Part shown: positions 11,578 through 61,655 of the stretch, in pieces
How the letters are laid out: each line of letters starts with the position of its first letter
Position numbering within the stretch: the first letter of the stretch is position 1
Notes under the pieces: generated by a model
What the model saw: only the letters and a program-made list of their open reading frames with translations
The model's database searches: none
Told to the model about the DNA's origin: nothing
Made by a program: the position numbers and the translations under genes
From: Acinetobacter sp. YWS30-1
Lineage (GTDB): Bacteria; Pseudomonadota; Gammaproteobacteria; Pseudomonadales; Moraxellaceae
DNA length: 64,000 bases
Direction of reading: 5' to 3'
NCBI RefSeq assembly: GCF_033558715.1
Contig: NZ_CP114606.1
Coordinates: forward strand, 2,232,001-2,296,000

Positions 11578-11774
11578 CCTGAGCTCCTAAAATTTTGCAA
11601 TTTCATTGACTCAACTTTTGTTTATTCTAAAACGCCCGAACTTCCAGATATACGCCAACCTTGTAATGACTCCAAATCCATCCCGATCAGGAACAAAAAA
11701 GCAACCCGGAGGTCACTGCTGTCCCATAGTTTGCTTTAAATAAAAAAACCTGAGTCCTAACAGTTAAAATATGA

Positions 11775-12962
11775 GTGCAAACAAACACTTTAACGACCAG
11801 GATTCAGGTTTTGTCACATCAGAATACCGTATTTCATGAGCTAATTAAACCTGTTGTGCGACAGGATTTTGAACAACTTGCTAAAGTACACCATGTTGGA
11901 CAGAAATTTAGAGCGGCTTCCCGGTGGGATCAGTTTATTGCCATATTAATGTCTCAATTCTCTTGTAGGCAAAGTCTGAGAGATATTCAATCCAATTTGG
12001 AGTGCCAACAGGAAAAGCTAAGTCATCTCGGAGCAAAGTCTATTCCCCGAAGCACGCTGGCACGAATCAATGAGCAGCAGCCTGCTGCCTTGTATCAACA
12101 GCTATTTTACAAGTTGCTTAAATACTATGACCACTCAAAAGTCGCTCATAAATTTCGCTTTAAGAATCCCTTGTATTCCTTGGATGCCAGTCATATTGAC
12201 CTGTCGCTTTCCTTATGTGAATGGGCCAAAGTTCACGACTCAAAAGCCAGCATGAAACTCAGTATAGGATTGAATCACAGCAATGATATTCCTGAGTTTG
12301 TTGCAGTTGAAAATGGCAAAGAAAATGACATGGTACAAGGCCGCAAATTCCAGTTTCCTGCTGGCAGCATTGTAGTTTTTGATAAAGGCTATGTCGATTA
12401 CCAATGGTATGCAAATCTGACTGCTCAAAACATTGGATTTGTCACACGTTTTAGGCCTAAATCTGTGTATCAGGTGATCCAGCAACATCCAGTGCTTGAA
12501 TCCAAAGGTATTCTAAAAGATGAAACCATTCAGCTGAATAGCGCACATGCCCTAAAAAGAAAAGCCCCAGTGTTAAGAAGAATTGAATATAGAGATCAGC
12601 AAAGTGGCAAGCACTTTAGCTTTCTCAGCAATAACTTTCATTTAGCCGCCTCCACCATTGCGGCGATTTATAAAGATCGTTGGAAAGTTGAGCTGTTCTT
12701 TAAGGCGATTAAGCAGAATCTCAAATTAAAAGCGTTTCTAGGCCGCAGCAGGAACGCAATTCAGACACAAATCTGGATTGCGATGATCGCCTATTTATTG
12801 GTGAGTTTCGCTCAACATTTAGGAAAAACAGGTTGGACAGTTCAACGTTTACTCAGAATAATTCAAGTGAATTTGTTTGAAAGAAGAACTTTAAAAGCTT
12901 TATTTTCACCCGATAAAATACCCATAAAACAAGAGGAAGCTCATTTGGGCTTCCTCTTGTGA
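11775..12962 (+). CDS. IS4-family DDE transposase
   Basis: Transposase of 395 aa. The N-terminal 75 residues (FEQLAKVHHVGQKFRAASRWDQFIAILMSQF) match the DUF4372-type domain of IS4-family enzymes. The DDE catalytic triad is visible: Asp in YSLDASHIDLS near 138, Asp in VVFDKGYVDY near 200, and Glu in YKDRWKVELFFKAIKQNL near 305, the last being the family's Y-x2-R-x3-E-x6-K signature. Start is GTG at 11775. The reading frame is uninterrupted, so the element may be active. The last codons form a 12-bp hairpin. Confidence 0.92.
   Translation: MQTNTLTTRIQVLSHQNTVFHELIKPVVRQDFEQLAKVHHVGQKFRAASRWDQFIAILMSQFSCRQSLRDIQSNLECQQEKLSHLGAKSIPRSTLARINEQQPAALYQQLFYKLLKYYDHSKVAHKFRFKNPLYSLDASHIDLSLSLCEWAKVHDSKASMKLSIGLNHSNDIPEFVAVENGKENDMVQGRKFQFPAGSIVVFDKGYVDYQWYANLTAQNIGFVTRFRPKSVYQVIQQHPVLESKGILKDETIQLNSAHALKRKAPVLRRIEYRDQQSGKHFSFLSNNFHLAASTIAAIYKDRWKVELFFKAIKQNLKLKAFLGRSRNAIQTQIWIAMIAYLLVSFAQHLGKTGWTVQRLLRIIQVNLFERRTLKALFSPDKIPIKQEEAHLGFLL
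12929..12960 (-). terminator. IS-borne hairpin facing lolA transcription
   Basis: A perfect 12-bp stem ACAAGAGGAAGC / GCTTCCTCTTGT with an 8-base loop overlaps the last codons of the transposase. Read on the minus strand it is followed by TTTTA, as a terminator would be. It would stop transcripts entering from lolA before they run antisense through the transposase gene. Confidence 0.55.
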
Positions 12963-13020
12963 AAAATTGTGGGACAGCAATGACCCGGAGGTTGCTTTTT
13001 TATTTAGGGTGTATTGATGC

Positions 13021-13713
13021 TTACTGATCAATAATGTCTGTGCCCTTTGGCGGAGTAAAGTTAAACGTAGATGCCGGAATCGTGGTATTCAGTTTTACAT
13101 TACTAAATTTAATATTCGTAGTCTGACCTAAGGAATCTTGCAAAATCATCAAGCTAGGCGCTTTGTTCGCACCAAAACTAATAGTCAGGCTTTCAAACAC
13201 CCCATCGGTATTTTTCGGATAAAGCGTATAATAGGTTTTAGCTTTATTCGGCTGAGTTACGCGATAAGATTGCATAATCTGGCTGGTATTGCCGGACAAT
13301 AATAATGCCGGTGTATTTGCCACCTGGTCGTCTAGACTCTGACGCACTGCTTGCTGCAAGTCTGGATCATAGATCCATACGGTTTTACCTGTAGTGGCAA
13401 TGGTCTGTTTAGATGGACTAGAAGTTTCCCAGTAGAATTTACCTGGACGCGCCACCTTCATCACACCTTTAAAGGTCTGGTTCATGTGCTGGGCGGTTAA
13501 GCCTTTTTTCTGGGTCGCTTTCGGATTCGTGACTTTAGTCGTTTGTTCAAAATTTGCAGTTAAGCTACGGATATTGCTGAGCTGTTTCACCAGATTCGCA
13601 GTAGCTTGCTGCTCCGTCGCTGCAGTTGCGGCAAATACAGTCGTGCTCATGACAGGTGCCAGTGTCGCCGTACCGATTGTTATGGCACATACAGTTTTAC
13701 GAAGCATACTCAT
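13021..13713 (-). CDS. lolA: Outer-membrane lipoprotein carrier protein
   Basis: Periplasmic chaperone that accepts lipoproteins from the LolCDE transporter and passes them to LolB at the outer membrane. About 230 aa: signal peptide MSMLRKTVCAITIGTATLAP with cleavage after VFAA, then the LolA fold with LVKQLSNIRSLTANFEQTT, GVMKVARPGKFYWETSSPSKQTIATTGKTVWIYDPDLQQ and ALLLSGN. The ATG at 13713 (or 13707) follows AAAGGTGAG; the ATG at 13737 lies upstream of that site and is less likely. An IS now sits directly downstream. Confidence 0.93.
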   Translation of the reverse strand: MSMLRKTVCAITIGTATLAPVMSTTVFAATAATEQQATANLVKQLSNIRSLTANFEQTTKVTNPKATQKKGLTAQHMNQTFKGVMKVARPGKFYWETSSPSKQTIATTGKTVWIYDPDLQQAVRQSLDDQVANTPALLLSGNTSQIMQSYRVTQPNKAKTYYTLYPKNTDGVFESLTISFGANKAPSLMILQDSLGQTTNIKFSNVKLNTTIPASTFNFTPPKGTDIIDQ

Positions 13714-60776: not shown

Positions 60777-60852
60777 TGGTGGGCGCTGACGGGATCGAAC
60801 CGCCGACATTCTGCTTGTAAGGCAGACGCTCTACCAACTGAGCTAAGCGCCC
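60777..60852 (-). tRNA. tRNA-Val(UAC), copy 1
   Basis: Full cloverleaf with encoded CCA, 76 nt. Anticodon loop CTTACAA gives anticodon UAC. The acceptor GGGCGCT pairs with AGCGCCC. Last gene of the array in the direction of transcription; it is separated from its neighbour by about 101 bases, far more than the others. Confidence 0.97.
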
Positions 60853-60860
60853 TGAAGAGT

Positions 60861-60915
60861 AAAAAATAACATCGTTATTTTTTATGATGCAAGACAAGCG
60901 TAGCGCGTAGTCTTG
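60861..60915. other. Hairpins in the long Val1-Asp1 spacer
   Basis: An AT stem AAAAAATAAC / GTTATTTTTT (60861-60870 and 60874-60883) and a second inverted repeat CAAGAC / GTCTTG (60890-60895 and 60910-60915) fill much of the 101-base spacer. They may be a terminator or processing site dividing the array. Confidence 0.4.
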
Positions 60916-60953
60916 GATTTTGAAACACATTTTCCACATCAGGGAATGAAAAA

Positions 60954-61030
60954 TGGCGCAGCGGACGGGACTCGAACCCGCGACCCCCGGCGTGACAGGC
61001 CGGTATTCTAACCAACTGAACTACCGCTGC
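60954..61030 (-). tRNA. tRNA-Asp(GUC), copy 1
   Basis: Cloverleaf of 77 nt with encoded CCA. Anticodon loop CTGTCAC gives GUC. Acceptor GCAGCGG pairs with CCGCTGC, with a G discriminator base as expected for tRNA-Asp. Confidence 0.97.
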
Positions 61031-61053
61031 ATCGCGTATATCTTTAGAAGATA

Positions 61054-61129
61054 TGGTGGGCGCTGACGGGATCGAACCGCCGACATTCTGCTTGTAAGGC
61101 AGACGCTCTACCAACTGAGCTAAGCGCCC
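61054..61129 (-). tRNA. tRNA-Val(UAC), copy 2
   Basis: Identical in sequence to the other three Val copies by eye; 76 nt with encoded CCA, anticodon UAC. Confidence 0.97.
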
Positions 61130-61159
61130 TTAAAGGGTCAAACTGTTTGATTCTTAGGA

Positions 61160-61236
61160 TGGCGCAGCGGACGGGACTCGAACCCGCGACCCCCGGCGTG
61201 ACAGGCCGGTATTCTAACCAACTGAACTACCGCTGC
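61160..61236 (-). tRNA. tRNA-Asp(GUC), copy 2
   Basis: Identical by eye to the other Asp copies; 77 nt, anticodon GUC, encoded CCA. Confidence 0.97.
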
Positions 61237-61249
61237 ATCACAAAAAATC

Positions 61250-61325
61250 TGGTGGGCGCTGACGGGATCGAACCGCCGACATTCTGCTTGTAAGGCAGAC
61301 GCTCTACCAACTGAGCTAAGCGCCC
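61250..61325 (-). tRNA. tRNA-Val(UAC), copy 3
   Basis: 76 nt, anticodon UAC, encoded CCA. Only 13 bases from Asp copy 2, so processing from a common precursor is needed. Confidence 0.97.
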
Positions 61326-61346
61326 TCAAAAGGTCTATCATGTAAA

Positions 61347-61423
61347 TGGCGCAGCGGACGGGACTCGAACCCGCGACCCCCGGCGTGACAGGCCGGTATT
61401 CTAACCAACTGAACTACCGCTGC
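61347..61423 (-). tRNA. tRNA-Asp(GUC), copy 3
   Basis: 77 nt, anticodon GUC, encoded CCA. It neighbours another Asp gene, breaking the otherwise alternating order. Confidence 0.97.
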
Positions 61424-61472
61424 ACTTACACAATGTCGCTATTGTGGCAAACGATTCATCAAGAACTTAAAG

Positions 61473-61549
61473 TGGCGCAGCGGACGGGACTCGAACCCGC
61501 GACCCCCGGCGTGACAGGCCGGTATTCTAACCAACTGAACTACCGCTGC
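61473..61549 (-). tRNA. tRNA-Asp(GUC), copy 4
   Basis: 77 nt, anticodon GUC, encoded CCA. Two Asp genes lie side by side here; the spacer is about 49 bases. Confidence 0.97.
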
Positions 61550-61579
61550 ACTATAAGTGTCTCAACTTTGAAAGAAGCT

Positions 61580-61655
61580 TGGTGGGCGCTGACGGGATCG
61601 AACCGCCGACATTCTGCTTGTAAGGCAGACGCTCTACCAACTGAGCTAAGCGCCC
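61580..61655 (-). tRNA. tRNA-Val(UAC), copy 4 (first transcribed)
   Basis: 76 nt, anticodon UAC, encoded CCA. Nearest to the promoter at 61688-61715, so first in the precursor. Confidence 0.97.

Follow-up and report, generated by a model that had tools for sequence, protein, structure and literature searches.

ISAbe18 and its close relatives probably direct their insertion into intrinsic transcription terminators

Introduction

Does an insertion sequence that lies in the middle of a transcription terminator owe its position to chance, or to a transposase that selects such places? The question is raised by a 64,000-nucleotide stretch of the genome of Acinetobacter sp. YWS30-1 (contig NZ_CP114606.1, positions 2,232,001 to 2,296,000 of the forward strand), which is referred to here as the window and whose numbering is used throughout. 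Within it, a copy of the insertion sequence ISAbe18 is found between lolA (13021..13713, minus strand; Pfam LolA, 141 bits), the terminator of which it splits, and another minus-strand gene that has no Pfam match. A sequence-only reading of the window had described the two flanks as joining into a perfect lolA terminator once the element is removed, and had suggested that this type of IS may choose hairpins. We conclude that the clade to which ISAbe18 belongs in all probability directs its insertion into intrinsic terminators, mainly by way of a pair of A- and T-tracts, and that its members carry a terminator-like right end of their own.

The element in the lolA terminator

ISAbe18 extends from 11714 to 12982 on the plus strand and is a 1269-bp member of the IS4 family. 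Its identity follows from a near-identical match over the full length of the element, plasmid copies annotated as ISAbe18 family being about 99% identical, and the length of 1269 bp is also that given in the portions of PMC6863613 and PMC8552602 available to us. The terminal inverted repeat reads CACTGCTGTCCCA at one end and TGGGACAGCAATG at the other. On either side lies one copy of a 10-bp target duplication, ACCCGGAGGT, at 11704..11713 on the left and 12983..12992 on the right. Beyond these copies are the two halves of the split lolA terminator, the left half (11695..11703) consisting of a run of six A (11695-11700) and the outer stem bases GCA, and the right half (12993..13001) of the outer stem bases TGC and a run of six T (12996-13001). 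Joined without the element, the flanks give A6-GCAACC-CGGA-GGTTGC-T6, the perfect terminator that had been described.

The boundaries themselves had to be moved. The element had been placed at 11713-12983, with an 8-bp duplication, CCCGGAGG, that comprised the loop and two bases on each side. The ends common to the 11 copies in the genome place it at 11714-12982, and the duplication at lolA is made up of the loop CGGA and three stem bases on either side. The start of all ten other copies falls one base later than 11713, and the 8-bp version puts one base per side inside the element that the other copies do not have as element sequence; one other copy does match the last base as it was originally assigned, because its own duplication begins with A. 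The 9-bp direct repeat published for ISAbe18, GCTATAGGC, as it appears in the available portions of PMC6863613 and PMC8552602, is identical to bases 1-9 of the duplication found at a terminator on another plasmid (L304).

The transposase is encoded at 11811..12962 on the plus strand, from a TTG codon at 11811, which matches the annotated start codon of plasmid copies; the reading frame is open upstream from a GTG at 11775. It harbors the Pfam domains DDE_Tnp_1 (86 bits) and DUF4372, and scores 236.2 bits against the NCBIfam model for IS4 family transposases, NF033592, the cut-off of which is 115. Members of the IS4 family carry the signature Y-2-R-3-E-6-K in their DDE transposase; in an alignment of 45 sequences, Y299, E306, and K313 are invariant and R302 is nearly so. 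The transposases of this family have a Tn5-like fold. A structure model of the ISAbe18 transposase reached a mean pLDDT of 51.5 and a pTM of 0.38, a confidence too low for use, and a search against PDB sequences gave no match at E values up to 1. An Rfam search of the window at gathering thresholds returned eight tRNAs and nothing else; these eight genes form one minus-strand cluster at 60780-61655 and are of two kinds by score and length.

If the element entered an existing terminator, that terminator should be visible at the empty site in relatives. Besides the source genome, 24 relatives have a match to lolA and no insertion there, and in five of them (L251, L252, L254, L260, and L261) the hairpin GCAACC/GGTTGC is found just downstream of the gene, with one substitution in the partner arm of L251. 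A different hairpin is called by the script downstream of lolA in a further 15, of which a few are weak (for example L262 and L266). No hairpin is called by the script in the remaining four, L256, L265, L273, and L274, although one is visible by eye in L256. The presence of the same stem at the empty site in 5/24 relatives supports a single insertion event into the lolA terminator.

Terminators as the target of a single clade

To place this event in context, at least 249 loci were gathered from searches of the own genome, the genus, the order, the class, and the phylum, together with named genome contigs and one viral contig. The genus-to-phylum searches took loci from among the matches listed per genome; one of them used the best 80 of 101 loci and another scored 8000 candidates. 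These 249 loci reduced to 168 distinct rows, with 32 lacking usable ends and 49 repeating a flank pair already counted. Site counts include only rows with a target duplication. A site was called a terminator by a simple caller when a stem of at least 5 pairs, with a loop of 3-9 bases and no more than 1 mismatch, was centered within 3 bp of the center of the duplication and had at least 5 T after it or at least 5 A before it, within 8 bases.

All 11 full copies in the own genome lie inside intrinsic terminators, with the center of the hairpin no more than 1 bp from the center of the duplication in each, as against 15 of 1100 random positions called terminators in the same flanks. Among elements whose transposase is at least 57% identical, terminators are found at 61/70 sites, some of which may go back to a shared event (L029 and L052, for example), and in all 61 the two centers again coincide to within 1 bp. 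More distant relatives are inserted in terminators at 2/51 sites, and random host positions are called terminators at a rate of 0.7-2.4%. The change with transposase identity is abrupt: 42/46 sites at 85% or more, 13/15 at 70-85%, and 6/9 at 57-70%, then 1/27 at 45-57% and 1/24 below 45%. The earlier idea of a hairpin-choosing IS is thus borne out as far as terminators are concerned, by 11/11 own copies and 61/70 clade sites compared with 2/51 outside.

In a quick tree, one clade of 37 of the 77 rows (SH-aLRT 100) takes in every row of at least 57% identity; the 77 were drawn from 96 distinct sequences among 140 usable proteins from the 168 rows. The shift to terminators coincides with this one well-supported branch (SH-aLRT 100 in the same quick tree). 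Between 34 transposases of the clade and 20 of its sisters, 17 residues differ consistently. The duplication is 10 bp long at 54/70 clade sites and 9 bp at 48/51 sites outside, the 9-bp form being found at 8/15 sites in the 70-85% group. Besides Acinetobacter, the hosts of the clade include other Gammaproteobacteria, such as Marinobacterium, Alcanivorax, Thalassolituus, and Cellvibrionaceae. No further relatives near L082, the closest sister, were found in two genomes of its family. A collection of phages gave no match to the element, and viral contigs yielded one relative, L225 (IMG/VR), which is 76% identical and lies near the end of its contig, followed by a T-tract half-site.

Elements without a duplication agree with this distribution. 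Within the clade, all 14 in which both flanks are readable have the two tracts, A to the left and T to the right, at the distance expected, compared with 2/15 outside the clade and a background of 1.6% of positions; we read these elements as recombinants between copies in different terminators. Plasmids (12 of 48 matching records) supplied 10 distinct new sites, six of which are called terminators; of the remaining four, three retain no fewer than 3 A and 3 T at the expected places.

Several elements outside the clade have insertion sites of other kinds. The relatives of 33% identity in Tahibacter soli (L220, L221, and L222) include two sites at which both flanks are readable, where duplications of about 10 bp, one of them inexact, are centered in a palindromic repeat without A/T tracts, possibly an independent case of targeting to a REP-like repeat. 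Four relatives of about 40-43% in genome G1004 (L232, L238, L241, and L244) each have an in-frame TGA and are bordered on both sides by matching arms that resemble half terminators; no target duplication was found for them, and their ends may be longer than assumed. L119 (41%) and L090 (33%) are single insertions centered on hairpins.

The preference for terminators is not absolute, since in Acinetobacter sp. Tol 5 the active element inserted, under selection, at two sites upstream of bamA, between that gene and a promoter, according to the portion of PMC8552602 at hand. A published jump lies at +17 behind the Pu promoter, with a second reported place at +146. In the native pWW0 leader, rather than the published construct, +17 ranks second among 280 scored placements if +1 is assumed to be the G that lies 12 bases downstream of the -12 C; its score is low and lends weak support.

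Genes around the sites were called with a simple ORF finder for the 52 of the 70 clade sites that have enough flank. Thirty pairs are convergent, 22 codirectional, and none divergent, so that at all 52 sites at least one neighboring gene points towards the insertion. Such an arrangement would also fit transposition that is targeted to termination events, such as paused RNA polymerase, R-loops, or supercoils, and not to a DNA sequence. We consider this highly improbable, given that the cuts fall within 1 bp of a position symmetric on the terminator and that the element faces both ways with respect to codirectional genes. An orientation bias relative to gene direction was rejected, as the 14 versus 8 split among the 22 codirectional sites is not significant (p 0.29).

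The nature of the target cue

What does the transposase recognize in a terminator? When the 70 clade sites are aligned on their cuts, position -6 is A in 94% and position +6 is T in 99% of them; positions -1 to -4 are mostly purines and +1 to +4 mostly pyrimidines. The motif is therefore symmetric: beyond one cut lies an A-tract, beyond the other a T-tract. It is also possible, if rather unlikely, that the transposase reads the DNA hairpin itself, as an extruded cruciform or a single-stranded stem-loop, and that the tracts merely come along with terminators. A hairpin is scored at 68/80 sites (the 70 of the clade and the 10 from plasmids), and, as noted above, hairpin and duplication share their center to within 1 bp at all 61 called sites even though the caller allowed 3 bp. 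The stem halves pair beyond the shuffled expectation at the outermost position of the duplication and at three positions outside it, 9-bp duplications favor odd loops and 10-bp duplications even loops (p 0.012), and one site, L197, has an 11-bp stem with weak tracts. Against a reading of the hairpin, both tracts are retained at 10 of the 12 sites where no hairpin is scored, compared with 0.8% of background positions; two of the 12 (L025 and L054) have hairpins by eye with loops outside the limits of the caller. Among the clade insertions, L036 alone lacks a hairpin and at least one of the tracts.

The spacing of the tracts is also informative. It lies between 14 and 19 bp, a range chosen post hoc, in 51/55 targets compared with 72/145 background terminators (p 4e-9), so that terminators with other spacings are under-used; the medians are equal and the spread among targets is narrower (Levene p 8.5e-6). 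This comparison used the 55 sites with strict AAAA and TTTT, of 61 that otherwise qualified. Symmetry is about as tight around the tracts as around the hairpin, with standard deviations of 0.55 and 0.49 bp, respectively, over 56 sites. An attempt to separate the hairpin from the motif by scoring the genome failed: in 462 kb of background there are 34 places with a motif score above 16, and since all of these are hairpins, sequence alone cannot separate the two cues. Under a looser tract rule, 110 of 577 background places are hairpins, compared with 48 of 54 insertions of the same kind. On the sequence evidence, paired tracts at a fixed spacing seem likelier than an extruded hairpin as the cue, because the motif persists at 10/12 sites without a scored hairpin. 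The original idea of hairpin choice holds at the level of where the element lands, and its view of the cue needs refining in that the A- and T-tracts are about as constant as the hairpin.

The narrow spacing also bears on the idea that insertion is random and that selection then removes all insertions except those in terminators. Terminators are innocuous sites for insertion, and the element supplies hairpins itself, both of which would fit with survival of this sort. It leaves the 1-bp centering and the restricted tract spacing unexplained, however, and the relatives outside the clade insert elsewhere, with just the two terminator sites out of 51; we find the idea barely credible. In the mechanism that we favor, the transposase of the clade would direct ISAbe18 into intrinsic transcription terminators and make staggered cuts that are symmetric about the center of the hairpin, giving rise to the 9-10-bp duplication. 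The likeliest cue would be the two tracts, A on one side and T on the other, placed symmetrically at a distance of mostly 14-19 bp, together with purines by the left cut and pyrimidines by the right; this arrangement may be read by a symmetric transposase dimer, and the shape of the hairpin may help.

Hairpins carried by the element

The element carries a hairpin towards each end. On the left, an RNA that reads inward could form a leader hairpin (11745..11812, plus strand), the 3' arm of which runs to the TTG start, and the ribosome site would lie within this arm. The hairpin is kept in the clade and in sister elements, with double changes at 9/10 predicted pairs among 33 sequences, and, because it is conserved both inside and outside the clade, it is older than the targeting.

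At the right end, a terminator-like hairpin reads inward on the minus strand (12921..12959), with a stem-loop at 12930-12959 and a U-tract at 12929-12921. In the lolA copy the stem is 12 bp and is followed by TTTTAT; among the 11 distinct right ends of at least 97% identity, six have a stem of 14 bp. Stems of 9 bp or more occur in 39/44 distinct right ends at 57% identity or above, versus 2/40 below. Of these two exceptions, the tree places L077 within the clade, and L220 is the Tahibacter element that inserts into palindromic repeats of another kind. In an alignment of 29 right ends, 94.3% of cells are paired and 55 cells have double changes, compared with 15.9 after shuffling. Double changes are found at 7/12 pairs, a figure reached by 27/500 shuffles; for the other measures, 0 to 5 of 500 shuffles did as well. 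The covariation score is 0.432, against 0.143 when shuffled (0/500) and no more than 0.163 when slid. The clade thus combines terminator-centered insertions with an inward, terminator-like hairpin at the right end.

Insertion splits the terminator of the host. The host hairpin has a folding energy of -12.2 kcal/mol before insertion and of -7.4 and -7.1 kcal/mol at the element junctions, a loss of about 5 kcal/mol. A pattern scan had hinted that a terminator is re-formed at the junctions between element and flank. This was rejected, as the junction folds are no stabler than those with shuffled element ends, and the left one is less stable (p 0.0009). The hairpin gained at the right end should instead stop transcription arriving from the right; at this locus, transcription of lolA would read into it about 60 bases past the stop codon of the gene. 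The older hairpin at the left end should hide the transposase start in read-through RNA. The pattern as a whole is that of terminator targeting with what would function as a replacement terminator. More broadly, and tentatively, since we rate the idea at a little under an even chance, terminator exchange may be a way of life for a transposon: terminators would be recognized as three-dimensional or dyad-symmetric DNA objects, split, and replaced by the element's own, with both traits having arisen on one branch and evolving together.

Implications

A bacterial genome holds many intrinsic terminators, and these are near-neutral places in which to land. By extrapolation, the 34 high-scoring sites in 462 kb suggest around 240 in the genome of YWS30-1, of which 11 are occupied. 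A stop signal of its own would allow the element to jump at little harm to the host, and, if the terminator-exchange reading is true, the 3' ends of genes would be open to occupation genome-wide at little cost. Since a terminator-like right end was gained to match, the idea of a low-damage niche can be put to a direct test. ISAbe18 may nonetheless alter transcription at the 3' ends of genes. A DDE transposase with a symmetric DNA cue would provide a simple system for questions about how targets are read, and possibly a tool for placing DNA downstream of genes.

Comparison with known systems

Symmetric targets are known in the IS4 family. IS231A, IS10, and other members use symmetric targets with short motifs, and in this they resemble ISAbe18; unlike those of ISAbe18, their targets are not terminators with A/T tracts. 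IS1630 of Mycoplasma fermentans targets inverted repeats like terminators and makes duplications of variable length; it has a transposase of another family, the IS30 type, so that the likeness to ISAbe18 lies in the terminator-like targets. IS10 and IS50 are protected against outside transcription, and the leader hairpin of ISAbe18 resembles this protection.

Our search of an open-access library found no report of IS4 elements that target terminators. In the portions of the main texts on ISAbe18 that were available, the word "terminator" does not appear in PMC6863613 or PMC8552602, nor in PMC7031236, which lists the element; ISAbe18 is likewise listed in the available portion of PMC10272872. 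For a Porphyromonas MITE, the available portion of PMC4596501 describes predicted terminators and/or polyadenylation sites on the flanks in 10/19 cases, not insertion into them. A parallel in target choice among mobile elements is provided by the group IIC introns, which, like the ISAbe18 clade, are directed to intrinsic terminators (PMC7161350, in the portion available). These introns are retroelements that use the stem-loop of the terminator together with RNA pairing and insert after the hairpin, whereas ISAbe18, the sole long ORF of which encodes a DDE transposase, inserts at the center of the hairpin.
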